DNA from: Isoetes taiwanensis
Taxonomy: Eukaryota > Streptophyta > Lycopodiopsida > Isoetales > Isoetaceae
Assembly: GCA_021234155.1 (NCBI GenBank)
Contig: JAJEKV010000002.1
Location: forward strand, 2,752,178-2,816,177
Direction of reading: 5' to 3'
Length of the DNA: 64,000 nucleotides
This document shows, in pieces, positions 2,471 through 51,765 of the stretch (its first letter is position 1; each line of letters opens with the position of its first letter). The notes under the pieces were generated by a model. The model searched no databases and was not told the DNA's origin. It was given only the letters and a program-made list of their open reading frames with translations. A program made the translations under genes and the position numbers.

Positions 2471-4264
2471 GTGTGTGAGCATTCGACCATAGTTCTCACT
2501 TCCCCTTCCTTTTTCCCTTTTCCTTTTGCATTTTTCCACTTTTTTTTTCTTTTAAAATAGGAAAGTTTTCCTAAAAAAGTTGGAAGGTTTTCCTAAGAAA
2601 AGAGGAAGGGTTTCCAAGAAAAATAAGAAAGGTTTCCATGGGAGGCCAATCGAAATCGGGCGTCCATAAAACTATCGGTCTCTTTTCTTCTCTAGCTACC
2701 CAAATTCATGCACCAAGATACCCCGAAAGACTAAGCTCATACCTTCCAATACCGCTGGGACCCTTTGAATCCTCTGGCTCTAAATCCAGTGGTTTTTTTT
2801 TCCAATTTATACCTCCAAATCGATGGTCCCCCTCTTTTTTCGATTTGTATATAGTAAAGCTCTGGAAACAAGCGCTCCAAACCAGGTACTTTTTGTTATT
2901 CATCCAAAGCTTGCTCAATTTGGAGATGTAAGTTTCAGTTGGAGCAATTTGTACTTAGAAGGATTTTAAAAAAAAAAGAAAAAAGAAAAAAAAAACGTGT
3001 TCTGGTGTTCATTCAGAGATAAAAACTGTGGAATCAATATGACCTCGCATTTAATATCCTCAAATACAAGGGAAGGCTTCTTGCCTTATCCTCAAACTTG
3101 TATTGTTTGTAAGACGTTTCAAACCCAATTTATTTGTTTTTTTATCCATGATTCTTAAGTGGTTCACTATTGATACGCCCCATGGCCCTGGAAGCTAAGC
3201 TGCCCTGCAACGCAAACCATGAACAAAACAAGGTAGTGTTGGGCAAACTTTTTAGGTCCCATCAAAAAATTTCCTAAGATGTCGACAAAGAAGCACACGG
3301 CGAAGAAAACATGTGAAGCCTACACGTCTCTCAACACTTTTGTCTATTTACAGTTATAGAGTAGGTTAAGTATGGATGAATCTATGTAGCGGCATTATCC
3401 TTGATGTGATCTGCAATCGCTGAAGCCCATGTAGAATTTTACTTCAAAGACATGCCAGTTCAGCAAAAACCCCAAAATTTGTTGCTTTAGAGAAGTGCTA
3501 GTTAGTTCTCCCCATTGTAGTATATTTAGAATCAGGAGAAGAGACATTAGACAATTGGATGAATTAGCAAGTTCACAATCCATTAGAAGAACATGAAGAT
3601 CAAATATCCAATGCACATTATAGAACTAGAAGTCACGTCTGGATAGGAAAATATGCCTACCTTATTTTTATTTGACAGGTCATGAAAATCAAACTAAGGG
3701 TGCCACATGGTATCATTAACTGTCTTCCAGCATGCAAATGGAGCAGAAGACGTTTTATCCATTTCTTTTATCTACTGTACTTTGTTTCACGCCATTTAAC
3801 CTCCAAAAGTTATGAATCATTGCTGGCCACGGGTTTTCTCAAATCCAAAAAAAAAAACTCAAAATATCCAGGAAAGTAATATTTAACAACTTCTTGGAAA
3901 AAGCCTTATTTACAACGTTAACATACTCAGTTAGATGGCTTTCATGTTAAAACAGATGAACAACTCTCACTCTCATAACCAACAAATCATCTTACTTCTG
4001 ACTTTGGAAGGCCTAGATACTTCATTTGGACCTTATGTGGAACAACGTGTTTTTGGTACAGATTGCAATAGAGAAAGAAAAGGAAGAAGCAACGATTGGA
4101 CTTAAAGTTTGTGCTCAATGTATGTTTATCAACAATGTTGGCACTTGAATTGAAAAGCACGTGAAAATGGCCTGGAAAATGGCATATAAACCTTTTAGTA
4201 CACTATGAAGAGATGTTTGAATGGAGACATGCAGTTGTAAGGTAGCAAGCTATGAGAACCAATA
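2471..4264. other. Intergenic, no gene recognised
   Basis: AT-rich sequence with homopolymer runs (for example the A-rich run near 2968-2995) and no reading frame that I can tie to a family. No RNA gene was recognised. Confidence 0.5.
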
Positions 4265-11552: not shown

Positions 11553-12309
11553 AGGTGAGTAAATTCACAACGCTTGGCCAAAGCCTAATCAAATTACTGG
11601 TCAATTTTTTGGTCAACTCCCTAGCCAAACTCTCGTTCAAGCTCTGATGAAACACCTGTCGAGCCTGCGGTTGAAAATATTTGAGTTTCAAATAGTTAAT
11701 AATAGTGCATCTATGATGATCTTATAGACGTAGAGAAACGATGTTTCTTATCAAATTCAACCAAAAGATCCAAACCCAGTTTGCCTCAATGCTCAGATCA
11801 AAACATAGGAACTTGTCCGAGTCATAAAGCATGAATGAATAAACTGAAATATAGTAATTATATAGACAGATTTCCTTTAAGGCATGAATAAACTTGTAGC
11901 AAATTCTTACCTTCTGTAAACTGGTGTATTTTCTGGCATATAGAACTCTAGTTCAAGTTTTAATCAAATAATTCGTCAAACATAGGCCAATATGCAATCA
12001 AACCACTATCAACCATTGATTGAATGTCTAGTCAAACTCCAGGTCAACTTCACGATCAACCTATAGTCAAATTCCCAAGTCACGTCTAATTAGCCCTTTT
12101 TTTATTGCAGGTTGGCAACTTAAAGATGTTGCTATGGCCCCTTGAAAAATATGCATGCCTATAATTTCGCAGAACAATGTGTTGTTTTATTATTAGAATG
12201 ATATGTTACAGATGATTCTCAACGCGAATTCATTTTGTCATTTGATATCATATAAGTTAAATTTAGATGGCAAGATTAGAGAAAAATTGAAAGATGGATT
12301 ATACAATAA
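11553..12309. repeat. Dispersed repeat X, copy 1 (Helitron-free)
   Basis: Shared with 27345-28614 and 40207-41773 plus 50702-50959. Recognisable blocks: ttggccaaagccta, ggtcaactccct, gctctgatgaaacac, atagtgcatctatgatgatc and ggattatacaataa. It is rich in GTCAA words (TTGAC on the other strand). At 12309/12310 this copy continues into tatggtgtgc, while the other two switch to a CTAG/CTAA-starting sequence. It is therefore the unoccupied site for the element described at 28615. Confidence 0.8.
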
Positions 12310-13220
12310 TATGGTGTGCATTTGTCTTTTGAAATCGAGAACACTTGAGTGACTGACATAAAATATTGGGCAATTAGATTGAATAATTGTGCCCTGTAAT
12401 AATGGCTATGCTACTTAAAATATCTTGCATGGAGTGGAGAGGAATTTGTATGTATCAACTTGCATTGTGCAAATTGGAATTCTAGTTGTTGCCGCTCCTC
12501 AGTCGTATATCATAGTGAACTGCATAAGGGGTGCCCTTATAGCCCAATCCCTCTTTCTCCATTCAAGAGGACTTAAAATTCCATGATAATCTATAGAGAG
12601 TAGGACAATTTATGGTGGGGTTGAATAGGGATAAATGTAAACTTGCTACCAATGAAAGATTTAACAAATATTCCATGCGACACTATCTAGATATGCAATA
12701 TCTCTTTCATATTTGTTTCGTAATGCATTTTTACTGGCATTTTGTATCCAGTAAACAGATTGGTAGTGGTGGAGTGGCATGTAGAGAGCTTCAGAAACTA
12801 ATCCTTTGGATGGGACATGTATTTCCATTGGTATTGATGGTCTGTTCGTGGAGGTAAGATGTCAAAAAAGACATGTTTGATTGACTCCAAAACCCTGCTT
12901 TTATGTACCAGTGACTGAAATGGTTTCACTAACTACACGTATATGACAATCCCCTAAGTGCTCTAATTGATGGCCCTACACAGTGAATAAATTTTAGAGA
13001 ACGAGAGCTATACAAAAAATAAGGTGGCGCTAACAATCAATGTCTGTATTGGCAATACAAAAGTAATGACAAAAAGATGCACACGTCCCTAAATAGGATG
13101 TGCTGACGTGGTAGGTGCTGACATCATGTTAGGGTTATAGTAGTTAGGGTTACAGTAGGTTTCCTACTTCTAACACCCCTTCTAAAATGCTATTGTAAGT
13201 AAAATAGAGTAGGAAATGAA
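12310..13220. other. Sequence after repeat X copy 1, no gene recognised
   Basis: The beginning is the natural continuation of repeat X (flank beyond the A|T empty site). The rest is AT-rich with no supportable gene. Short direct repeats (gttagggtta) occur near 13128-13152, beside the copia remnant. Confidence 0.45.
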
Positions 13221-16199: not shown

Positions 16200-19113
16200 T
16201 TTCCCCCCTTCCACCAATTAAGGTGCCGACGCAGCCCCACCAGAATGTCCTCCCACACACTTGCCGCCGAAATGTCGATGCCGAACATGATACCCAAAAG
16301 CCTAGAGCATGTGCCCTGCGGCTGCACTCGCCAAGGAAATTAAGACACAACCACCGGCATGGGATTTGCTGCCGGCCATAATGCCGAGCACTTCGTCCAA
16401 TTCATGAGGCAGCCTGAGGCAAGGGAAAATGTGTCCAAGAGCTCCTTCGCGTTTAATAGATTCATCTCATCAGCCTGTAGGAAGAGGAAAGAGTCATCAA
16501 AGATAATCGACTTCCAATCATAAGACTCTCCGCCATCCTCAAACTCCTTATAACCCCCACCACCGAGACCAACAATCCGCTGAGGGCCTCACCATCATGG
16601 TAACAGGAAGGGCGCCCAAAGGGCATCCTCGCTAACGCCACTGCCACCAAAGATCGCCGATGATTCACCGCGTGACATAGGATGGTGGCTTCAAGGACGC
16701 AGAGCTTCCGGTTAATGCCGCAGAAAGTTTCCACGTACCATAACATCATCCTCTTCAAAAATCCCAACGAACACTAATATAGGCCTTAAGTCCGTCCAGC
16801 CGTGTACACGCTCGCTGACGCTTCAAGGCCAAAGAATACCCTCAATGCCGCCATACATTGTTAAGAATCTACCGCCCAGAATGAAGCCGCATTGCATGGG
16901 ACTAATAGCCTTCAACAACTGCGCCTAAGGGAGAGGGCTCAAAGTGATGATCTTGTATACTGCTGATAGCAGCGTGATGGGCCGCCAATCAGAAATGACA
17001 GATGGCTCCTTCACCTTTAGTATTAACGAGATGCAGCCAGTGTTGAGTCTATAATCCAAATACCAAGCAGCACCTTTGATAGGTCTCAGACATTAACAAT
17101 CCCCACCCAATCCCAATATTCTTGGAACTCCACCTGAATGCCGCCCTTGCGGGGGCACTTATGAGGGGCCAAGGGCGCAAGAAACCTCCTCAAGCTCCCC
17201 GCTTTGTAGCGGGCGCCGCAACGCCGGCCGCCCGTCCACACACCTTGCATGACACCTTACTGAGCACGATCTCCTCCATCACGTCTGTGTAGGGATATCT
17301 CTTTTCCCGAAAGAACAGAGAGAAATGCTGAAAAGTGACCCATTTAATATCTTCAGGCAAATGCAGAGTACGACCATCGGGCAATGCCAGAGACGACATT
17401 GAGGCCGCATACTTCTTCTGCCGCGCAGCCCTAAAGAACATTCGAGAATTGGTGTCTCCTACCCGCAGCCAGGTGATCCCCACCTTCACCCTTGCCTGAG
17501 CAGCCCTCTTAGATTCGTCCGCTGCAATGTGGCGCAATATCTCATTCTCCCGCACCCCATTAGATGGCTGTGACATAAGGGTTTCCAATTCTCGATACAA
17601 TGCCTCCAACGCCTCCCGCTCATGCCGTGCCCTCCGCCTCCCCCACGACTTGGCGAATGCCTTGACCTCAGCCAGGGCCTTGACCATCCCTGACATCCCG
17701 AAGTTATCCCGAAAGGTACGGAACCAAATCTGCTGGCATCCCAAAGAGAAGTCAGCATCCAGCGGTATTTAACTTGAACAATGTGCGTGCCGGCCTGACT
17801 GCACTCGATCCCTGGGAGATTAGCTGAGGAAAATGATCAGAGACCGCGGTGGACAGAATGTTCTTTCGCTTGAGCAGAGGCGCCCGGTCCGATGCTAGGG
17901 TATTAGCATAGCATCTGTCATGACGCGCATACGCCCGACCGGCCCCCGTCCACTGATTACACCAGGTGTGTGGAGTCGCCCGCCGCCTCTGCCAAATGCA
18001 AGGAGTCCAACAGCATCACCCATTGCTGCCGCTCAAAACCCTGCACCACTTCCGCTCCTCTGCCACACCTATCATGAACAGTCTTGACCATGTTGAAATC
18101 GCCCAGCAGCAACCAAGCCACACCAGCCCCCACGGATGCGACCTTGTGCCTCAGAGATGCCCACAACGCCCCTCTCTATCACGCACTATTGTGGGCGTAG
18201 ACATTCACAATCCCCCACTCATGCGATCCCTCTCGCCACTTGATAATGACCCACCTGCCCCAACGGTCAGCCAGGATAAGAGTCACCTGCACATGCATCT
18301 TCCACGCAATGGTCGTCCCGCCTTTAGAGGCCCCAGAGGTGGCAACTGCAGCAGCGTATGTCCAGCAGTGCCCGAGCGTCCCCCCTGTGACACTTATGTT
18401 TCTGAAGGCACAAAATATCCGGGTCCAATTTGCGAACGGCCAGCGCCACTCTCGTTCCCTTGCAGGGTGATGAGCGCACCCCTCGAACATTCCAACTCAA
18501 AATCTTCTGGTCCATAACTACTACTGAGAAGAAGGATTCTTATGATGCTTCTTCTTCTGCCCCCGTCTTGCCGGTGAAGGCGGCCCCTGATCTGAGTCAT
18601 ATGGAACAAGAGTGAGCGGGTTATCTGTGAGGGCGACCTCAGCCTCCAAATCCGCCACATCCGCCCAAGAGCGTACCCGAGCCACCTTATCAAGATCCAT
18701 CCCCTCCGAAGAGGCTTGGGTGGACACTACGTCAGAGTCCAACTGCCCCACCAGCCGATCATCAGCGAGCCCAGAGCCCACCTGTAGGGACTGCCGCTGC
18801 TCCGCCAGCTCCTGAAGCCGCTGAATGTGAAGCAACTTTTGGGCCACCGTTTGTGGGGACACCGTTGAGTCCACGCCTCCCTGCCCCCCTGGAACAGCCA
18901 ATGGCACATTATTATTCCTCAGGCCGAGTGGCCTACCCTGCACGGACCCAACTACCGCCCGGGTCCCGGCCGGGGCGCCCTCCACCGGGCAGAGCTTGAG
19001 ACGCGAGCTCGCGTCCCCGCCCCGGCCAACGCCCTCGTTGCCTCCCGTGGAGCCCCCGGCATCAAACAGCCTCACGTGCTCGGGAAGCTTAACCCGCGAA
19101 GACCTGGAGAGCG
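16200..19113 (-). mobile_element. Plant L1 LINE copy A (3' half missing)
   Basis: Minus strand, 5' end at the high coordinate. ORF1 remnant at 19075-18521. Endonuclease at about 18515-17957 (ILSWNVRGVRSS, KLDPDILCLQ, WLLLGDFNMV). Linker and start of RT at 17744-17190 (WLRVGDTNSRMFF). RT palm near 16490-16503, where the Ala-Asp-Asp motif has lost bases of its Ala codon. The element parallels L1 copy B (28739-33355) but stops at 16200, so the end of RT, the zinc finger and the poly(A) tail are absent. Right flank ggttttaattgtg (19114-19126) followed by ttggatag shows it occupies the same target site as copy B: a duplication, not an independent insertion. Confidence 0.85.
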
Positions 19114-19235
19114 GGTTTTAATTGTGTTGGATAGTGACTGACTGTTATTTAGAAGGCAAATGATTTATCATAAAATTATCATTGAAAGAAAGCCATTTGA
19201 CTTTGCAGATTTTGAAATTAGTTTAGAAATAAACA
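19114..19235. repeat. Right flank of L1 copy A, shared with 33359-33470 and 51072-51190
   Basis: Blocks ttggatagt, ttatttagaaggcaaatg, atttatcataaaattatc, attgaaagaaagccattt and gaaattagtttagaaata are common to all three places. At 19236 this copy switches to caaggtgctgcg, while the other two continue into aacatgataacttgg. That continuation reappears here only at 24770. Confidence 0.85.
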
Positions 19236-24682: not shown

Positions 24683-25202
24683 GTCACCAGCATATACTAG
24701 GGATATTCTAGCATATACCTAGGATATGCCAAAATCCCACGTAAACAAGGGTTTGCCCCCCTAGGGGCAACCCAAAAACATGATAACTTGGCGACTCCTC
24801 ACACAACACTGTATTCTAGCACCTGCAATATGGAGTCATTTGAGGCTTTTCAATATATAGCAAAATAATACAGGGGGTTGTTTTTGTATTTTTGTATAAT
24901 TTTTGCTATGGTTTTCATATGATTTGATGGGCGTATTGCACGAGGCATACTAATCAGTATATAGAGCGCACACTGTATTCTTTTTCTGAACGGCATCTTA
25001 TCTATGGTTTTGCAATGGTTTTGCCTTGCATGTTTTTATTCCTTAAGAAATTAATTATTTAAATTTCATAAAGCCCATGCAAGCAACGACGCGTTCTACT
25101 TTAGGGTTCGTGGACTAAAAGGGATTTAGGTTTGTGAGATGTGAGAAGGTTTGTTGGAAATATCCAGATCAAGACTGCTTACAGTAATTGTGTAGTCAGT
25201 TA
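24683..25202. repeat. Helitron-family internal repeat, copy A
   Basis: From 24770 (aacatgataacttggcg) to the H2A start this matches 33470-33900 and 51187-51615: tattctagcacc, atatggagtcatttgag, ttgatgggcg and ttaggtttgtgagatgtgag. No coding content upstream of H2A. The first 87 bases (24683-24769) are the separate motif set also seen near 19885. Confidence 0.8.
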
Positions 25203-25536
25203 GCTATAGCAGGTGGTCGTGGAAAGTCCACAGGCAAGAAGGCCGTGTCGCACAGCGCCAAAGCTGGCTTTCAGTTTCCTGTAGGAAGAATTGCTCGCTT
25301 TCTGAAGCAGGGCAAATTTGCTGAGCATATTGGTGTTTACCTTGCCTCTGTCATGGAACATTTGGCTGCCAAAATTCTTGAACTGGCCAAGGAACATTCA
25401 GTTGGCCGTCAGAAACGACTAGGAATTGAGCAAATTATTGGGGCATGTAACCATAGCAAATGGAGGCGTTCTGCCCAATATACATTCTGTGTTGTTGCCA
25501 AAGAAGGCTGCTGCCAAGGCTGCAGAAACCCAATGA
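25203..25536 (+). pseudogene. Histone H2A pseudogene, copy A
   Basis: Plus strand reads [39 protein letters not shown], then [17 protein letters not shown]: canonical H2A N-tail, alpha-1 and alpha-2. The VGAGAP-type loop before Y is shortened. About 15 codons are missing after LELA; the text resumes in another frame as NIQLAVRND, an in-frame TAG, ELSKLLG, then [20 protein letters not shown] and a stop at 25534-25536. The wording is major H2A/H2A.X type, not H2A.Z. Initiator Met, docking-region codons and acidic-patch Glu codons are damaged. The same TAG and the same 15-codon gap occur in copy B, so the damage predates duplication. Confidence 0.85.
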
Positions 25537-27344
25537 TATGTATCTACCTCCGTGGCTTACTTTTGCAGACTCTGGCTGGAGCTTTGAAGCAGAAAAGGTG
25601 AGTTCCTTGTCCTAATCTTAAAATTATTAAACAGAATGCAAGGCTGCTTTGCTTGGCTTGCGCAGGATTTGGTGAAGATTTGCAGCCATAAGCCTGCTTC
25701 TATTCTGCATGTCCTGTGCATGAGGACTTGTAGTAAACATGCCAGGGCAGGGCAATTTTAATGCACATGGTCTTTAGTCTTCTAGTTGACGAGAGAATTT
25801 GTGGAACTTTTGGCTAACGTAATGTAATGACCATTTTGTAACATAAATGTCCCCCAATCTTCTACTTAATAGAATACAAGCTGGATCTGTGCGGCATAAT
25901 CTCTCAGTAGTTACAAAAAAAACCTTTCCTAATTAAATTAAGTCAATCAAGATAAAAAATGAAACTGTTCCTAGTGAACAAAACATAAGTATGCCTAGCA
26001 AATGAAGTCGTTGCTCCAAAAGCATTGCTATAAACATGATCCTCCTTAAATTTGACTTCTAGACCGAGATAACATCAAGAAAGTGGGACTCGTTATCGAG
26101 CATCGTCAGTTACACGTTCACAATAAATTATAAAGACCTAGACTCCACCTGATTGCAGCTATATTTCTTTCATTTGCCTTGCTACATATCATAGCATTCT
26201 AGCCCCTTTTGCAGAGATTAAGAGTTTAGCATGACATAGGAGAACTTATTAATGCTTAGCATGCAGATAAGACTTACTTGTGCCGAAGTTTGAAGATGGA
26301 ACCAGTGCTAGACCTAGGAAACAAATCATTTGCATATTTGTATTGGCATCCCAATACTCAAGGCATAGCAAGTTTCCATAAGAGGATCATCAGTTCAAAT
26401 CTATAAGAAACAATCAATATAACAATTTAGAAACAATCTCAAGAACTACAACCTTAAGAATCACAATCTCAAGAATTATACAACCTCATCTTGGTTCCTC
26501 CTCTAACATTGGTAGTTCTAGCTATATCCTCTAGTTCCGTTGCATGGAAATAAACAAAAAAATCAAGTGTTTCTCCAAAATTATTAGAGCTTGCAAAGTA
26601 AAAACACTTCCTATAACATTGAGCCAACACAGAAGAGTTAATATGCCAAGACACATGGAGCCTAAGAGGATATATTTTACTGGAATATACCAAAGCTAGA
26701 TATATTTCAGCTCGAGAAAGTGGCTATGGCTATGGCCATATTGAAAACATAACATTTTATTGATCTAGAACTTTTAGTACAACCATATTCTATATTTGAT
26801 TATATACTCAATCAGATTCAAGAGTCCACGGTACAGTTTCGACATTGAGGAAAAACCATAAAAGCCAAGTGATTCATACAATAAACAACCCGATCATCCC
26901 AGTTAGCCGATTACCCTTGAATATAGATAGATAGGTGGATGGATAATACTTTTTCAATAGAGGTAAGATACAAAAAAAATGATATGTCATAGCAAAGACA
27001 ATTCTTCTGAAATTAGACATATCACTTCAAGTTGTTCCAAAACCGAAGGAGGGTAATGACGTGTTAAGTTTCACTAGCTATGTACATTGCAAAAAAATTG
27101 TTGACAATAATCTTGACTTGTTTAGATAGTTATTCCAACTACTGAATGACATTGGAATTTATTAGTGGGTAGAAATGCACATGGTCTTTAGTCTTCTAGA
27201 TATCAAGAGAATTTGTGGAACTTTTGGCTAACGTACATAAGTAATCCTTGAGTGAATGATATTAAAGGAATGTATCAGCAACTAGTAGATAAAAGTATGC
27301 ACGGTCTTTGAAATCTTCTAAATCTAAATTTTGTACACTTCTCT
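25537..27344. repeat. H2A downstream flank plus dispersed block D, copy 1
   Basis: 25537-25910 is the H2A 3' flank, shared with 34232-34690. From 25911 (aaacctttcctaattaaatt) to about 27340 the sequence is nearly identical to 59170-60575 and more loosely to 57718-59080. No gene is supportable; the small frames at 26469-26693 recur only because the DNA is duplicated. Confidence 0.85.
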
Positions 27345-28614
27345 GGCTTCAATATCTTATCCTGCATCATCTTCTTATATTATAAAACCGTGGCGTCTGT
27401 CTGTCCATCAATAGCACATGTAGTCGTTGGTCGGGCCTGACCAACTTAGCAGTTGAAAGAAACATAGATGTGAGTTATGTACAATAAAATAGTAGATTAC
27501 ATATAGAGATCATTGGGAAAGATTTCTATAATTTGTGAACTTTTGTTACGAGTTAGAGATGCTTGATATATATCGGCAAAATAACCAGGTAAATCGCATT
27601 GCATCAATAATATAAGATAGATAGAAAAAAATAAGCTTGGAAAGATATTAAATTACGTAAGTCTAACATATATAGTGACATACAAATCTAGAAGAGCAAA
27701 AGACAATCTTTCACAGCACCCTTAAATATATTCATGTTCTAAACGAGAGGATCCACAACTTCAAACTCCTTGTGCCCCTCGAGGGTCGAATCCAAGTGCA
27801 CAACGTGTAGAGGGAGCATCGGTCCCCATGTATCAAGATATATATGAGGTAAAAACTGTGACCTGATATACGTTGCTTGGTTTTTTCTTCTCCAGTTCCT
27901 CCCCCCCGTGAGTGAATTCACAATGGTTGGCCAAAGCCTAGTCAAATTGCTAGTTAATTTTTTGGTCAACTCCCTAGGCAAACTCTCGCTCAAGCTCTGA
28001 TGAAACACATGTCGAATTTGTGGTTGAAAATATTCGAGTTTCAAGAATTTAAAGTCACACTTGTTTATAATAGTGCATCTATGATGATCTTATAGAAGTA
28101 GAGAAATGTTGTTTCTTATCAAATTCAATCAAAAGATCCACGCCTAGTCTGCCTCAATGCTCAGATCAAAACATAGAAACCTGTCCGAATCATAATAGCA
28201 AATTCTTATCTCCTGTAAACTGGTGTATTTTCTGGAAAATAGAACTCTAGTTCAAGTTTTAATCAAATAATTCGTGAAACATTGGCCAATATGCAATCAA
28301 ACCACTGTCAACCAGTGATTGAATGACTGGCCAAACTCCAGGTCAACTTCACGATCAACTTATAGTCATCCCAAGTAACTTCTAATTAGTCCTTTTTTTA
28401 TTGCAGGGTGGCAACTTAAAAGATGTTGCTATGGCCCCTTGAAAAATATGCATGTTTGCCTATAATTTCGTCAGAACAATGTGTTGTTTTATTATTAGAA
28501 TGATATGTTACAGATGATTAGGTCTCAACGCAAATTTATTTTTTATTGGATATCATATAAGTTAAATTTAAATGGCAAGATTAGAGAAAAATTGAAAGCT
28601 GGATTATACAATAA
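27345..28614. repeat. Dispersed repeat X, copy 2
   Basis: Starts ttctctggcttcaatatc and is collinear with 40207-41773 (minus its RTE insertion) and with 11553-12309. It contains two useful unoccupied sites: 27691 (occupied by RTE at 40579) and aacttatagtcatccc at 28357-28372 (duplicated around the L1 at 41774). It ends at ggattatacaataa, directly before the CTAG of the Helitron-like end. Confidence 0.85.
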
Positions 28615-28738
28615 CTAGTAACAGTGCCCGGCGGTGCCGGACTTTAGCAACGATATGTGATGTTGGGATGTATTTTTGATATAATATTTGCACAAAGCAA
28701 TAAAAGCATTGTCAGCGACTGACATGGTTTTAATTGTG
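28615..28738 (-). mobile_element. Helitron-like 3' terminus (CTAG, hairpin, A|T site)
   Basis: On the minus strand the element ends GTCCGGC-ACC-GCCGGGC, seven bases, then CTAG, followed by host T. A 7-bp stem (one G-T pair) just before CTRR is the plant Helitron 3' end architecture. The flank ...acaataA|CTAG compares with copy 1 of the host repeat, which reads acaataA|Tatgg (12309/12310) with nothing inserted. Helitrons insert between A and T without duplication, exactly as seen. The element extends toward higher coordinates and carries the H2A piece. Rep/helicase and the 5' TC end were not found, so it is at best a non-autonomous, gene-carrying copy. Confidence 0.65.
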
Positions 28739-31700
28739 TCTTTTTTTTTTTTTGAAGGATCAGATTAATTAATATCAATACAGAGTAAGTACAAGATGAG
28801 CGATACTAGGGTACTCCCACCCAACCTGGGGGGAGAGCCCACATGTCATGTAGCTACCTACAACTCATAACACAAACCTACCAATACTGTCTACAATGTG
28901 GAGGGTCCTTTCCCAGACCGCTGCCTTGAACTGCTCTTAGGGGACGCCAAGTAAGAAAGATATAATTTGTATCTTAGCTGCGGGATCAAAACCCCAGACT
29001 GCACCTCCTCATTCCTGAACACCTTCATGCGTCGTCGCTTCCAAATGAGCCACAGCAACCAGGCTTTACACAAATGGAAGGCCAAACAATGGAGCTGGGA
29101 CCACCCGCTAGGATACACCCCCAAAAGAACCTCTTGGCTACGCAGGGGCATGAAAGAGGCGCTGGACCCACTGCCATGCCGACTGGATGTCTGAGCAAAG
29201 AAACATATAGTGCTCCAAAGTCTCCACACTGGCGCCACATATTGGGCACAGGTCGTTGATCCGCGGATTGACCCTGTGAACCCAGGTGTTCACCCTCAGG
29301 GATCGGTGCACTATCTGCCATAGCAACACCCGAATCTTGGGGGGCAAAATTGGGTTCCACATCCATCTCCAGATGTTGCCCCAGTCATCTTCCGGCACCT
29401 GGAGACTCCAGCCGTCCGAAGGAGGCAGCTCATCCTGAATTGCCAAAAGCTCATAACAGGACTTTACAAAATTTGAGGGATCAACTTTTGGATGACACCT
29501 CCATACTCGTCCGGACGCTTGCGGGGGGTGTAGCGGCAGAGTGTTAGCCACGCGCGCCCAGATAGCGCAATCCCGTTCTTGAAGTCCAAACCTGTGGCAA
29601 AAAAGCTGCCAGGGTGCCAACTGCCCGTCGACATACCACTCCCCCACCGTCAAGAACCCATCTCAGGCCCATCTCACCTTATTCGGGTCGACGGATGCCA
29701 CCGAAGACCGCACCGTGATGCACCCGTCGGCGGGATCCACCATGGTGATGCCTCTAATCCAATGCAAGTGGCAAGATCAATGGCAAATGGGCGACGCTCC
29801 CGTGCTCGCAGAGCCCTTCAAAAAAAGAGAGGCGTGAACATACCCGATATCCGCTTAATAACGCCCACCTGAAGCCATACGCAGTACGGGACGACTTTAA
29901 TTTGCTAAAAACTATGGAATGAGCCAACGACTGATGAAGCAAGACCATGCCTGGAGAATCGAGCACATTCTCGAGAATCGCAAAGACGAACTTAGACAAG
30001 AGGACCTTACTATGAAGCGAGAAGTCCAGGAAGCCAAGTCCACCCGCAGCTTTGGGACGCAGGCATTTCCACCAGGCAACCTTGACGACCGCCCCTTCCT
30101 CGTTGCCTCCCCATACAAAGTTACGAACCATGGAGGAGATTTCCCGAACCTTGTTCTCTGGCGCCAGGATAATAGATGTCATATAAACATGAGTTGAGCA
30201 TAAAACGGACTTCACCACCCACCGACCACGCCCGACCATGGACGGTTCCCCCTTCCACTAATTAAGGTGCCGACGCAGCCCCACCAGAATGTTCTCCCAC
30301 ACACCTGCCGCCGAAATGTCGATGTCGAACGGGATACCCAAAAGAATAGAGCATGTGCCCTGTGGCTGCACTCGCCAAGGAAATAACCACGGGCATGGGG
30401 TCTGTTGCCGGCCATAATGCCGAGCACTTCGTCCAATTCATGAGGCACCGAGGCAAGGGAAAATGTGTCCAACAGGCTCGCCAAGGTTTAATAGATTCCC
30501 TCATCGGCCAGTAGGAAGAGGGAAAGAGTCATCGATAATCTTGACTTCCAATGCGATTGCGATCCGTGCCATCCTCACCCCCTATAACCCCGCCTCTACC
30601 GCCGGGGTCAACAAGCTAGAGGGCCTACCCCTGCGATGGTAAATAGGAAGGTGCCAAAGGGCATCCCCGGCTAACGCCACGCCCATACTAAAGATGCGCC
30701 GATGATTCACCGTGGACATAGGATGGTGGCTCGGCGACGTTAAGAGCTTGGGGTTACTGGCAGTAAAGCTTCACCACGTACAAAGGCTAACATCATCCTC
30801 TTCGGAAAATCCCAACGAACACTATCATAGGCCTTGCGAAGTCCGGCAGTTACCTGCGTTACACGATCACGACTTCTCATACCCGCTGAATACCCTCCGA
30901 ATGCGCCGCTACATTGTTAAGAATCACTTTGCGCAATGAAGCCAGATTGCATGGGACTAATAGCCTCCTTCAGAACAACTTGCAGTCTAAGTGAGAGGGC
31001 CTTCGCGATGATCTTGTATACTGCTGATAGCAGCGTGATGGGCCGCCAATCAGAAATGACAGATGGCTCCTTTACCTTTGGTATTAACGAGATGCAACCA
31101 GTGTTGAGTCTATAATCCAGCACCTCTGCCTGAAGCAGATCTTGATAGGTCTGCATTACTGAATCCCCCACCCAATCCCAATAATCTTGGAAGAACTCCA
31201 CGGGAATGACGTCCAGGCCAGGGCACTTATGAGGGGCCAAGGCGCAGCAAGCCTCCTCAAGCTCCTGCTTTGTAAGCGGGCGCTGCAACGCCTGCCATCT
31301 GTCCGCCGACACCTTGCATGACACCTTACTGAGCACGATCTCCTCCATCACGTCCGTGTAGGGATATCTCTTCCCGAAAGAACTGAGAGAAATGCTGCAG
31401 AGTACGACCATCGGGCAATGCCAGAGACGACATTGAGGCCGCATACTTCTTCTGTCGCACAGCCCTGAAGAACATACGAGGATTGGTGTCTCCTACATGT
31501 AGCCAGGTGATCCCCGCCTTCACCCTTGCCTGAGCAGCCCTCTTAGATTCGTCCGCTGCAATGTGGCGCAATATCTCATTCTCCCGCACCCCATCAGACG
31601 GCTGTGACCTAAGGGTTTCCAATTCTCGATACAATGCCTCCAATGCCTCCCGCTCCTGCTGTGCCCTTCGACTCCCCCACGACTTGGCAAATGCCTTGAC

Positions 31701-33355
31701 CTCAGCGAGGGCCTTGACTATCCCTAACATCCCGAAGTTATCCCGAAAGGTACGGAACCAAATCTGCTGGCATCCCAAAGAGAAGACAGCATCCTTAAGG
31801 TGAGCGGTATTTAACTTGAATAATGTGCGTGCCGGCCTGACTGCACTCGATCCCTGGGAGATTAGCTGAGGAAAATGATCAGAGACCGCGGTGGACAGAA
31901 TGTTCTTTCGCTTGAGCAGAGGCGCCCGGTCCGATGCTAGGACAGAACCCCTCGATCTCTTCTGAATGGAGCAATGTATAATCAAATACATTGAATGAAT
32001 CTAAGGTGTAGAACGAGTATATTTTGTGTAATCTTAACTCCTAACTCCCTCCATAGTGGAACGAACTGAGAGATGGCCCATAACTACAGTCCGTAGTCAA
32101 AGCTGATACGAAGTCGACGCCGGGAGAGGCTCGAAGGGGGAAAAAATCTCGGTGGGGCAAACTCAAAGAACCACTCTTGAACGTTGAAAATTTATGCCCG
32201 ACCGGCCCCCATCCACTGATTACACCAGGTGAATGTGGAGTCGCCCGCCGCCTCTGCCAAATGCAAGGAGTCCAACAGCATCATCCATTGCTGCCGCTCA
32301 AAACCTTGCACCACTTCCGCTCCTCTGCCACACCTATCATGAACAGTCTCGACCATGTTGAAATCGCCCAGCAGCAACCAAACCACACCAGCCCCCAAGG
32401 ATGTGACCTTGTGCCTCAGAGACGCCCACAACGCCCCTCTCTGTCGCGCACTATTGTGGGCGTAGACATCCACAATCCCCCACTCATACGATCCCTCTCG
32501 CCACTTGATAATGACCCACCTGCCCCAACGGTCAGCCAGGATAAGAGTCACCTGCACATGCATCCGTCCCGCCTTTAGAGGCCCCAGAGGTCGCAACTGC
32601 AGCAGCGTATTGCGGCCCAAACATGTCCAGCAGTGCCCGAGCATCCCCCCTGTGACACTTATGTTCCTGAAGGCACAAAATATCCGGGTCCAATTTGCGA
32701 ACGGCCGGCGCCACTCTCGTTCTCTTGCAGGGTGATGAGCGCACCCCCCGAACATTCCAACTCAAAATCTTCTTGTCCATCACTACTACTGAGAAGAAGG
32801 ATTCTTACGATGCTTCTTCTTCTGCCCCCGCCCTGCCGGTGAAGCCGGCCCCTGATCTGAGTCATATGGAACAAGAGCGAGCGGGTTATCTGTGAGGGCG
32901 ACCTCAGCCTCCAAATCCGCCACATCCGCCCAAGAGCGTACTCGAGCCACCTTATCAAGATCCATCCCCTCCGAAGAGGCTTGGGTGGACACTACGCCGA
33001 GAGTCCGATCAGCCGCACTACAGCCAGAAGCCCACTTCAGGGACGCCGCCAAGCCCGCCCAGCCCCGGCTTGTGAATGTGAAGCAACTTCTGGGCCGCCG
33101 TCTGTGGGGACACCGTTGAGTCCACGCCTCCCTGCCTCCTTGGAACAGCCAATGGCACATTATTCGCAGTAGGCCGGAGTGGCCTACCCTGCACGGACCC
33201 AACTACCGTCTGGGTCCTGGCTGGTGGCGCCTCCTCCATCGGCCCGAGCTTGAGATCCGAAGCCTCCGTTCCCGCCTCAATGTCTTATGCTGTTGCCTCG
33301 TGGAGCCCCCGCAAAATGGGCTCAGGTTTCTAGAAGCTTAACCCGACGAGACCCG
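28739..33355 (-). mobile_element. Plant L1 LINE copy B, with poly(A) tail, inside the Helitron-like segment
   Basis: Minus strand from about 33355 to a T13 run at 28741-28753 (poly(A) tail). ORF1 remnant 33202-32786. Endonuclease 32783-32192 (ILSWNVRGVRSS, LDPDILCLQEHK, WLLLGDFNMV). Linker 31991-31326. RT N-terminus 31444-30917 (HKCPGLDVIP, SLIPKVKEPS, WRPITLLSAVYKIIAKAL). RT palm near 30520-30540 with a damaged Ala-Asp-Asp. Distal RT region 30239-29754 (RNFVWGGNEEGAVVKVAW, RPKAAGGLGFLD). Zinc-binding zf-RVT 29653-29138 (PPKIRVLLWQIVHRSL, CPICGASVETLEHYMF). C-terminal tail to 28891. Left flank ggttttaattgtg (28726-28738) is the target sequence seen intact at 51072-51084; the right-hand duplicate is eroded to gtg. 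Several frameshifts; not active as read. Confidence 0.88.
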
Positions 33356-33904
33356 TGGTTGGATAGTGGACCGGCCGGTTATTTAGAAGGCAAATGATTT
33401 ATCATAAAATTATCATTGAAAGAAAGCCATTTGACTTTCGCGATTTTGAAATTAGTTTAGAAATAAAAAAACATGATAACTTGGCGACTCCTCACACAAC
33501 AATCAGTATTCTAGCACCGCAATATGGAGTCATTTGAGGCTTTTCAATATATAGCAAAATAATACAGGTAGTTGTTTTGTATTTTTGTATAATTTTTGCT
33601 ATGGTTTTCATATGATTTGATGGGCGATTGCACGAGGCATACTAATCGAGATATAGAGAGCGCATACATTGTATTCTTTTTATCGAAGGCATCTTATCTA
33701 TGGTTTTGCAATGGTTTTGCCGCATGTTTTTATTCCTTAAGAAATTAATTATTTAAATTTCATAAAGCCCATGCAAGCAACGACGCGTTCTACTTTAGGG
33801 TTCGTGGACTAAAAGGGATTTAGGTTTGTGAGCTGTGAGAAGGTTTGTTGGAAATATCCAGATCAAGACTGCTTACATGAATTCAATAGAGTCGATTAGC
33901 TATA
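33356..33904. repeat. Helitron-family internal repeat, copy B
   Basis: Continuous from ttggatagt through aacatgataacttgg to the H2A start, like 51085-51615. It differs from copies A and C mainly at CAG/CTG words (for example ctttcgcgat against ctttcagcagat, and agcaccgcaat against agcacctgcaat). No gene. Confidence 0.85.
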
Positions 33905-34231
33905 GCGGTGGTCGGGGAAAGTCCACAGAGCAAGAAGGCCGTGGTCGCGCCAAATGGGCCAAAGCGGCTTTCGCCAGAGAAAGAATTGCTCGCTTTTCCG
34001 CGGGGGGCAAATTTGCTGAGCATAGTGGTGTTTACCTTGCCTCTGTCATGGAACATTTGGCTGCCAAAATTCTTGAACTGGCCAAGGAACATTCAGTTGG
34101 CCCTCAGAAACGACTAGAAATTGAGCAAATTATTGGGACATGTAGCCATAGCAAATGGAGGCGTTCTGCCCAATATACATTCTGTGTTGTTGCCAAAGAA
34201 GGCTGTTGCCAAGGCTGCAGAAACCCAATGA
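33905..34231 (+). pseudogene. Histone H2A pseudogene, copy B
   Basis: Same layout as copy A: GGRGKST at the start; [22 protein letters not shown]; the same roughly 15-codon gap; NIQLAL-type text with the same TAG before ELSKLLG; and the end [20 protein letters not shown]-type region with a stop at 34229-34231. The N-tail and alpha-1 region (33930-34000) are more scrambled than in copy A, notably where copy A has CAG or CTG. Confidence 0.8.
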
Positions 34232-34690
34232 TATGTATCTACCTCCGTGGCTTACTTTTGCAGACTCTGGCTGGAGCTTTGAAGCAGAAAGGTGAGTTCC
34301 TTGTCCTAATCTTAACATTGTTAAACCGAATGCAAGACTGGTTTGCTTAGCTTGCGCAGGATTTGGTGAAGATTTGCAGCCATAAGCCTGCTTCTATTCT
34401 GCATGTCCTGTGCATAATCGGAGGACTTGTAGTAAACATGCCAGGGCAGGGCAATTTTAATGCACATGGTCTTTAGTCTTCTAGATGACGAGAGAATTTG
34501 TGGAACTTTTGGCTAACGTAATGCACGTAAGTAATCCTTGAGTAATGATATTAAAGGAATGTATTAGCAACTAGTAGATAGAAATATGCACGGTCTTTGA
34601 AATCTTCTAAATGTAATGACCATTTTGTAACATAATCTCCCCCAATCTTCTACTTAATAGAATACAAGCTGGATCTGTGCAGGCATGTTC
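34232..34690. repeat. H2A downstream flank leading into the protease gene
   Basis: Shared with 25537-25910 and, from about 34485, with 58950-59160. It contains ctggctggagctttgaagca, a candidate intron-like gtgagttcc, and ctacttaatagaatacaagc. It joins the protease 3' end at 34690, the same join seen at 60640. No gene of its own. Confidence 0.75.
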
Positions 34691-34692
34691 TC

Positions 34693-36003
34693 TCAGTAGT
34701 TGCTACAATCTGCTGGTACAAAAGAGATCTTCATTGCCTTTGTATCGTAGGTAACAAGATGATTCTGCTGCATTATGTTTCCAATGATGCCGACTGGACT
34801 AAGATCGCCTTCTTGTAGAATGGCACGTGACATCAACAAGCACATGACATTGGGATTGACCATGCCCATGTAACTTGAAAGTGGAGGATTGAGTGAAGCC
34901 CCCTCGAAGTGGAAAGTGAGCGGAGGAACCTGCACGTTAGGTGCACGTGAAACATCAAAGCAGAGATCGTGGCCAGGTACATGAACTTGAGGCACATATG
35001 GCATTGCATTGACGAATGCACGTGCTACATCATTGAATACACCTTCCTCGAGGATGGTGAGCGTAGTACCAGAATCAATCATTGTACCATGAGAGTTGAG
35101 ATCTGAATATGGTTGATTGCGGTTTGCAATCACGTGATTTCCTACACTGATGCTGTGAAGGTGGACATAGTAGATTCCCTTGCCAAGGATGGGTGTAGAA
35201 CTGGCCAAAGGATTTGGGGGAGGGGCGCCAAAGAAGAGGGCGCTATCAGCATCTTGGCCATAAAATGGCGGCGAGGGGAGAATACTCCATCAATGGGCAA
35301 CCGAGAGACAAGAGAAAGAGGTCCCGAATTTAGTCCCAATAATACCATCACCATCAAAACGGCCAACAAGAGTATTAGAACAACCAAAGTTATCCTGGCC
35401 TGGTGGGGAGCCGTGCAAAGCGATGGCTTCGCTATGCATACCCCCTTAGTGTAACTCGTATCAAAATATTGATACACATAGGAACAAGAATATTCAGGAC
35501 GATTTCTAAGAAAAGGATTGGGACGAGGGGCAAGAAGCACCAGACAAAGGTCCACAACCATAATAGGGATTACATCCAAGGGTGGAAAATGAAGTAGACT
35601 GCCATGGATACAAAACATTTTCGGGACATGGAGCACAACTTCCTTCATTTTGAGAGCATTCAGAGCAAGGGCCACACTTTATCCAAACTTGGTCGCTTCC
35701 ACTGTCCATTTGTACCCTAAAACGCTTTGCTGGAGTGCCCATCCATAAGTCCATCATATACCCAGATTGTGTGCTCGTAAGGGGGATGCGACCATTGTGT
35801 CTAGCTTGCCAATATGCACTCCTTTTTTGGCTGCTTTCAGCCCCTAGATGCAATTTCTCAGATGTTGGCAGACCCTTGTGTACATGAGTTATATTCATTC
35901 TAATTTGCTCTGCTGCATGTGTTTGCGGGAGTGAGACTGAGACTGAGACTAGGCCTAGTACGAGCAATAGGATCCTCCATGTTAATGTTAGAGAAGTAGA
36001 CAT
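34693..36003 (-). pseudogene. Nepenthesin-type aspartic protease, copy 1, frameshifted
   Basis: Minus-strand, intronless layout as in plant A1B proteases, about 1.31 kb. N-terminal 166 residues read openly: hydrophobic signal segment ILLLVLGLVSVSVSL (residues 11-25), then GYMMDLWMGTP and the first catalytic motif MDSGSDQVWIKC with Asp100, followed by the cysteine-rich insert (CGPCSEC, CNPYYGCGP). The C-terminal 171 residues also read openly: GIYYVHLHSISVG, the second catalytic motif MIDSGTTLTILEEGVF, VPPLTFHFEGASL, and GIIGNIMQQNHLVTYDT. The middle (35210-35520) needs at least four frame changes (YSCSYVYQYFD, NFGCSNTLVGRFDG, SGPLSLVSRLP, ALFFGAPPPNPL). First motif is DSG, not the common DTG. 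Role if intact: secreted or vacuolar proteolysis. The breaks may partly be sequence error. Confidence 0.85.
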
Positions 36004-50701: not shown

Positions 50702-51616
50702 AACTTATAGTCATCCCAAATAACTTCTAATTAGTCCTTTTTGTTGCAAGGTGGCAACTTAAAAGATGTTGCTATGGCCCTTCAAAATATGCATGTTTGC
50801 CTATAATTTCAATCGAGAACAATGTGTTGTTTTATTATTAGGATGATATGTTAGAGATGATTAGGTCTCAACGCATAAATTTATTTTTATTGGATATCAT
50901 ATAAGTTAAATTTAAATGGCAAGGTTAGAGAAAAATTGAAAGTTTGGATTATACAATAACTAAATGCCGCGGCGTGGTGCGGACTTAGCTGCTTAATATG
51001 TGATGTTGGGATGTATTTTTTGATATAATATTTGCACAAAGCAATAAAAAGTATTGTCGATTGGACGACATGGTTTTAATTGTGTTGGATAGTATTGGGA
51101 TTATTTAGAAGGCAAATGATTTATCATAAAATTATCATTGAAAGAAAGCCATTTGACTTTCAGCAGATTTTGAAATTAGTTTAGAAATAAAAAACATGAT
51201 AACTTGGCGATTCCTCACACTACACTGTATTCTAGCACCTGCAATATGGAGTCATTTGAGGCTTTTCAATATATAGCAAAATAATACAGGGGGTTGGTTT
51301 TGTATAATTTTTGCTATGGTTTTCATATGATTTGATGGGCGTATTGCACGAGGCATACTAATCAGTATATAGAGCGCACACTTTTATTCTTTTTCTGAAC
51401 GGCATCTTATCTATGGTTTTGCAATGGTTTTGCCTTGCATGTTTTTATTCCTTAAGAAATTAATTATTTAAATTTCATAAAGCCCATGCAAGCAACGGCG
51501 CATTCTACTTTAGGGTTAAGTGGACTAAAAGGGATCTAGGTTTGTGAGCTGTGAGAAGGTTTGTTGGAAATATCCAGATCAAGACTGCTTACAGTAATTG
51601 TATAGTCAGTTAGCTA
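50702..51616. repeat. Repeat X copy 3 (right part) joined to Helitron-family copy C
   Basis: 50702-50959 completes repeat X. At 50960 it switches, at the same base as in copy B, into a diverged Helitron-like end (ctaaatgccg... against ctagtaacagtgcccgg...). Unlike copy B, the site ggttttaattgtg|ttggatag (51072-51092) is unoccupied by L1. The sequence then runs continuously into the H2A flank. Confidence 0.85.
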
Positions 51617-51765
51617 TAGCAGGTGGTCGTGGAAAGTCCACAGGCAAGAAGGCCGTGTCACCGCAGTCTGCCGCTTCGATTTCTGTAGGGAAGAATTGCT
51701 CGCTTTACGGCGGGGGCAAATTCTTGAAACATATTGGTGTTTACCTTGCGGCCTTGTGAATGGGG
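51617..51765 (+). pseudogene. Histone H2A pseudogene, copy C (5' part only)
   Basis: Opens like copy A (gcaggtggtcgtggaaagtc, [12 protein letters not shown]). It becomes scrambled over the alpha-1 region (rearranged around tctgccgcttcg), with a recognisable attgctcgcttt and attggtgtttaccttgcg. It then runs directly into an RTE LINE at about 51765; the rest of H2A is absent. Confidence 0.75.

Follow-up and report, generated by a model that had tools for sequence, protein, structure and literature searches.

A rolling-circle transposon that appears to have inserted once beside an aspartic protease gene of Isoetes taiwanensis and to have been copied by duplication

Introduction

The hallmarks described for Helitrons are a 5' TC, a 3' CTRR end such as CTAG, a hairpin close to that end, insertion between A and T (written A/T here, a slash marking a junction), and relatives that encode RepHel (PMC4683698, PMC4778049). 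The closest described systems are DHH_Mothra of rice (PMC4683698), Helraiser/Helibat1 of bats (PMC4778049), and the gene-fragment Helitrons of maize and rice, which are non-autonomous and carry host gene pieces (PMC2575219). The main text of the Isoetes taiwanensis genome paper holds no mention of the word Helitron (PMC8566536), and a full-text literature search for Helitron and Isoetes returned no paper with both words in the title or abstract. Here, a Helitron family of this species is described to the base, including its two ends, the empty sites, and relatives that encode RepHel. One rolling-circle transposon of this numerous plant family seems to have entered a repeat next to a protease gene a single time, after which duplications would have copied the insertion.

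Materials and Methods

The window, the whole stretch of DNA that was analysed (64,000 nucleotides), is C1018:2752178-2816177. The assembly searched comprised 1,658,258,908 bases in 1,110 sequences. The terminal search used a 161-bp query over the 3' terminus and gave 40 matches, 5 in the array and 35 elsewhere. The junction search used a query across the junction of copy 1, with the join after query base 55, and gave 45 matches: the window itself, 24 that ran uninterrupted, 13 that started at query base 56 (the junction), and 7 partial ones. The interior search used positions 51085-51749 as the query, and 40 matches were scored out of 2,054 candidates. In the 5'-end search, 21 non-array loci were found among the matches listed, two of them not reaching the end; 15 were read. 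The genome was also searched with PF14214, giving 150 scored matches from 1,813 candidates, and 8 RepHel loci, selected by long frames or best scores, were fetched.

Results

The 3' end and its target site in the window. The features on which the comparison rests are as follows.

11555..12309, + strand, left flank X, copy 1
12310..12990, + strand, right flank of the target; with the left flank it makes up the empty site 12309/12310
19114..19233, Helitron-borne fragment in the copy 1 region, beside a partial LINE, without a Helitron end
27691..28614, + strand, left flank X, copy 2, abutting the CTAG end
28615..28739, - strand, Helitron 3' terminal segment, copy 2 (CTAG 28615-28618, spacer of 7 nt at 28619-28625, hairpin arms 28626-28632 and 28636-28642); the LINE interrupts it near 28740
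28740..33378, - strand, LINE-type retroelement inside the Helitron-borne segment, absent from copy 3; edges approximate
33379..34458, continuation of the copy 2 Helitron-borne segment, ending at about 34458/34459 at the junction with the aspartic protease unit
34693..36003, - strand, aspartic protease gene (TAXi_N and TAXi_C) in three overlapping frames, part of the duplicated unit
50702..50959, + strand, left flank X, copy 3, abutting the CTAA end
50960..51749, - strand, copy 3 insertion with a CTAA terminus, decayed hairpin, no LINE, repeat W from 51268, and truncated H2A

When the window was compared with itself, the homology between copies 1 and 2 stopped exactly at 12309/28614 and that between copies 1 and 3 at 12309/50959. 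Copy 1 is the empty site, reading TATACAATAA/TATGGTGTGC at 12309/12310 and continuing TATGGTG. On the + strand, copy 2 reads ..ACAATAA/CTAG TAACAGT GCCCGGC GGT GCCGGAC, with CTAG at 28615, and copy 3 reads ..ACAATAA/CTAAATGCC.., with CTAA at 50960. Read on the minus strand, copy 2 consists of the hairpin GTCCGGC-ACC-GCCGGGC, then ACTGTTA, CTAG, and the host T; the Helitron 3' architecture proposed in the preliminary description (hairpin 28626-28642, 7 nt, CTAG at 28615, and T) is thus correct to the base. The minus strand of 28614-28648 folds into a hairpin with a 7-bp stem and a 3-nt loop (-6.1 kcal/mol, z -1.35), a fold that is weak taken alone because 21 of 200 shuffles equalled it. The end built from the family consensus folds at -9.6 (z -3.47, equalled by 1 of 200 shuffles). 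At the end of copy 3, the described fold is gone through decay (z -0.60, 55 of 200 shuffles equal), and the simplest reading of its CTAA is that this copy of the one insertion changed after being duplicated.

The LINE at 28740..33378 has poly-T at its left edge on the + strand and matches zf-RVT above the cut-off and RVT_1 below it. Both a longer (28740-33378) and a truncated (16204-19100) LINE copy lie in Helitron-borne segment and offer an order marker for the duplications. In each of two sets of window frames examined against Pfam, 8 of 10 frames had no match.

One insertion and the protease array. Three independent insertions are ruled out, as copies 2 and 3 share one left flank that ends at the same base. 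Given this shared flank and the recurrence of the insertion through the protease array, copies 2 and 3 are best read as one insertion, and the window copies as pieces of it that were multiplied with a tandem aspartic protease unit. Among the 40 interior matches scored of 2,054 candidates, the stretch 51085-51749 was present at six places in C1018:2.77-2.90 Mb, the remaining matches started at or near W, and the interior to the left of W was matched by the array only. Array 3' ends with the left flank were located on C1018 at 2780792, 2803137, 2870077, and 2898617, and near 2834.6 kb the alignment of a fifth array copy spans the junction. The 5' ends with the right flank lie on C1018 from 2934997 onward and at about 38.5 Mb. 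No fetched unit combined the 3' end, H2A, and the 5' end at a plausible distance, so that the origin of both ends in one event rests on their shared target site. The nearest 3' and 5' pair seen in the array spans 36.4 kb (2898617 to 2934996), a distance not taken as the element length because it contains duplicated protease units.

Since protease copies lie between these two ends, a protease inside the Helitron was considered as well; this was ruled out because the empty C1060 unit and the units with 5' ends place the protease beyond the right flank. Aspartic protease (TAXi) genes are amplified on C1018, where two arrays are separated by about 35 Mb, and also on C1046 and C1060; some copies have long open frames, and some are broken. 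Protease copies near Helitron ends were found on C1018 (two arrays), C1046, and C449, and the C1060 unit was read without such ends.

The H2A piece. Two segments of the window carry H2A.

24774..25759, H2A-bearing segment in the copy 1 region, without a Helitron end attached in the window
33546..34228, + strand, repeat W (from 33546, about 285 bp) followed by the H2A pseudogene; 34142-34228 matches Histone_H2A_C

The match at 34142-34228 has an E value of 7.2e-12; of the four frames in the H2A study, two had no match in Pfam, these including the window frame for the N-terminal part of H2A and the frame for H2A in L029. Judged by eye, the H2A region of the window is a degenerate H2A reading, a pseudogene, attached to the dispersed repeat W. 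The preliminary description had placed an H2A piece in all three Helitron copies and had taken this as evidence of gene capture. That argument is not supported: the segment at 24774-25759 is not joined to the Helitron 3' end in the window, and copies 2 and 3 are best read as one insertion.

Capture of the H2A piece from a host gene by the Helitron, which would make it a gene-capturing element, deserves serious consideration, short of being called probable. In its favour, in copy 3 the pseudogene begins about 0.6 kb inward of the 3' end, array matches carry the same stretch, the family member L026 contains a short piece of W, and carriage of gene pieces is a known trait of Helitrons (PMC2575219). 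Against it, W with H2A was read at four other loci, on C785, C1051, C1065, and C741, where the ends of the window Helitron do not flank the W-H2A units in the DNA read (4.5-10 kb, with about 2-2.5 kb on the side of the expected 3' end). These four share the sharp left boundary of W (33546 and 51268 in the window, with a short form in L026) and have different left flanks, and in three of them, C785, C1051, and C741, the H2A exon runs into a common PPR-bearing stretch, the PPR match being confirmed in C1051 only. Nested insertion of a W-H2A unit fits equally well, and the recurrence of W with H2A at four loci without flanking ends leaves capture unproven. Among the 40 scored of 2,054 candidates in the interior search, a match on C1097 also reaches into H2A, and 29 further matches, of which two were read, have W without H2A.

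These loci were also considered as further Helitron copies. No ends were present at C785, C1051, and C1065 in the DNA read; at C741, a family-like 3' end is present, but its element runs away from H2A. The recurring unit is itself chimeric, with W, the first H2A exon, and the PPR-bearing stretch in about 2.5-3 kb (L029:2500-5015 on C785, L030:2500-4982 on C1051, and L032:2006 onward on C741); it has the sharp common left boundary AATATATAGC and a Pfam PPR match in L030 only. It is an improbable extension that the insertion preceded and perhaps promoted the amplification of the protease cluster by supplying homology for unequal exchange, picking up a mobile W-H2A cassette.

The 5' end and empty sites. 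The 5' end lies outside the window. At all 8 loci read, from 13 such matches of the junction query, it adjoins the same right flank, as A/TCTATTTTTC; the sequence there is ..CCAAATTTGAAAAATAGA/TATGGTGCATTTT, in shorter form ..AAAAATAGA/TATGG, and on the element strand A/TCTATTTTTCAAATTTGG. A common 5' TC end beside flanks of the tatggtg type had been predicted, and all 8 loci have it. A comparison of filled and empty sites gave 0 bases gained or lost and no target-site duplication, in exact agreement with the A/T insertion without duplication first read at 12309/12310.

The junction of copy 1 could have been produced secondarily, by deletion or recombination of a filled copy, instead of being an ancestral empty site. 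Such an event would suit an array as heavily rearranged as this one, where partial LINE and H2A-bearing segments lie about 4-13 kb after copy 1. Against this, 24 of the other junction matches, on many contigs, run through the junction uninterrupted, and all five of them that were read pass from ACAATAA straight into the right flank in the same continuous order without the element. One stretch of C1060 has X, the right flank, and the aspartic protease without the element and is largely colinear with two filled C1018 units, with about 1.65 kb unmatched between the right flank and the protease. The uninterrupted copies on other contigs strongly oppose a secondary origin, and since a deletion would have had to restore an exact A/T at every such site, we regard it as very unlikely and keep to the ancestral empty site.

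Away from the array, all 15 loci read end in ..GA at the 5' end, and in 14 of them this end stands before T. Flanks are shared by two pairs of loci, L025 with L067 and L028 with L076, so that about 13 of the 15 ends are independent. At L074 (C1029:5262620-5262879), the 5' end abuts not T but the CTAG of another element of the family, in a CTAG-TC head-to-tail junction.

The family in the genome. In the terminal search, A preceded CTAG in 35 of 35 non-array matches, and the flanks switched exactly at A/CTAG in every one; the 150-bp flanks were similar for a single pair (L016 and L040). Homology past CTAG at independent loci, which would have spoken against the proposed terminus, was therefore absent from all 35. 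Because BLAST selection could favour A, exact patterns were also counted. The consensus hairpin with CTAG, CTAGT-N5-TGCCCGGCGTTGCCGGGC, occurs 855+929 = 1,784 times in the genome, and its reversed control 0 times; the leading A is present in 851+928 = 1,779 of the 1,784 (reversed control 0). This frequency is not chance, and the many copies ending A/CTAG that had been expected do exist. Because its hairpin departs from the consensus at 2 positions, the end in the window is not counted in the 1,784. With at most 1 mismatch, the consensus pattern occurs 2,451 times, and a longer pattern nearer to the window element (32 bases, at most 2 mismatches) occurs 281 times.

Four loci were fetched to about 10 kb. 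Two have both ends in order, L025 (3516-9696, 6.2 kb) and L026 (1496-9829, 8.3 kb); at L027 and L028, the 3' end was not found within 10 kb. Terminal inverted repeats are absent at L025 and L026: the inverted-repeat match between the terminal 40-mers was equalled by 166 and 150 of 200 shuffles, with 1 of 10 terminal bases matching. The bases common to both flanks number 0 at L025 and 2 (TA) at L026.

RepHel candidates. Three of the 8 RepHel loci read (L082, L083, and L088) carry a hairpin-CTAG/T end that is related but not identical, lying 3' of the Rep gene and in the correct orientation, so the expectation that RepHel elements would share the end is borne out in this related form. All three match Helitron_like_N and PIF1 and contain GLPHxH, YxYKY-type (paired Tyr), and Walker A motifs. 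Among the 100 ends listed from matches to the consensus pattern, that of L083 has the most frequent form. From 2,451 ends per 1.66 Gb, about 0.1 ends would be expected by chance in the 76 kb read, a rough figure, as the ends of L082 and L088 exceed the mismatch limit. The hairpin-CTAG end of the window family was not found at the other 5 of the 8 loci, and the 5' ends of the RepHel elements gave no match to the 5' end of the window family above shuffles. By eye, no pair within 20 kb was seen between 100 listed of the 281 ends and the 150 PF14214 matches.

Two further ends were noted at these loci. At L085:4058-4093 (C1107), a long GC-rich palindrome runs into CTAG/T with nearly no spacer after a RepHel locus, and is possibly a different type of Helitron 3' end. 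At L082, RepHel-type 3' ends of the same sequence stand 3.5 kb apart, at 4232 and 7768, with different flanks.

Another class of element ending at CTAG (foldback, MITE, or pack-type TIR) is extremely improbable: GC-rich palindromes are found in other elements too, but terminal inverted repeats are lacking at L025 and L026, the empty site has no duplicated bases, the TC and CTAG ends are asymmetric, A adjoins 1,779 of 1,784 ends, and RepHel elements have a related 3' end. The element is a canonical Helitron whose ends, target, and family are defined to the base, and it has the 3' CTRR with a GC-rich hairpin, the 5' TC, A/T insertion without duplication, no terminal inverted repeats, and RepHel relatives.

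Discussion

We are highly confident in a single insertion of a non-autonomous Helitron at A/T, followed by copying through duplication of the protease unit. One such element would have entered the minus strand between the A and T of the dispersed repeat X, about 3 kb from an aspartic protease gene, leaving the 5' end A/TCTATTTTTCAAATTTGG and the 3' end hairpin-ACTGTTA-CTAG/T. Following the published mechanism, RepHel would have made a nick at TC, displaced one strand, halted at the hairpin and CTAG, and joined this end into the A/T target. As the duplicated layout suggests, tandem and segmental duplication of the protease unit would then have copied the filled site and broken it up, so that one stretch of the array came to hold 3' ends and a stretch beyond it 5' ends. 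One lineage also received a LINE, and the H2A pseudogene would have come with the dispersed repeat W, by nested insertion or capture. The family can aid repeat annotation in Isoetes taiwanensis, and the locus carries a caution that duplicated insertions are not to be counted as independent gene captures.

Like the gene-fragment Helitrons of maize and rice (PMC2575219), the window element is non-autonomous and is associated with a host gene piece, but the H2A of Isoetes is tied to a separate dispersed repeat. DHH_Mothra differs from the Isoetes family in its terminal sequence, in an interior that is unrelated as far as seen, in its host, which is not a lycophyte, and in having its hairpin 13 bp from the 3' end instead of 11 nt (PMC4683698). 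The two are alike in the 5' TC, the 3' CTAG, the GC-rich 3' hairpin, and the A/T preference, and in both the non-autonomous copies are numerous and presumably dependent on related RepHel elements (PMC4683698). Helraiser is an animal element with demonstrated activity, whereas the Isoetes family is known from sequence alone (PMC4778049). The two share 5'-TC and CTAG-3' termini, a terminator hairpin 11 nt from the end, an AT target, and a RepHel core, and the CTAG-TC head-to-tail junctions reported for Helraiser (PMC4778049) compare with the junction at L074 in Isoetes.
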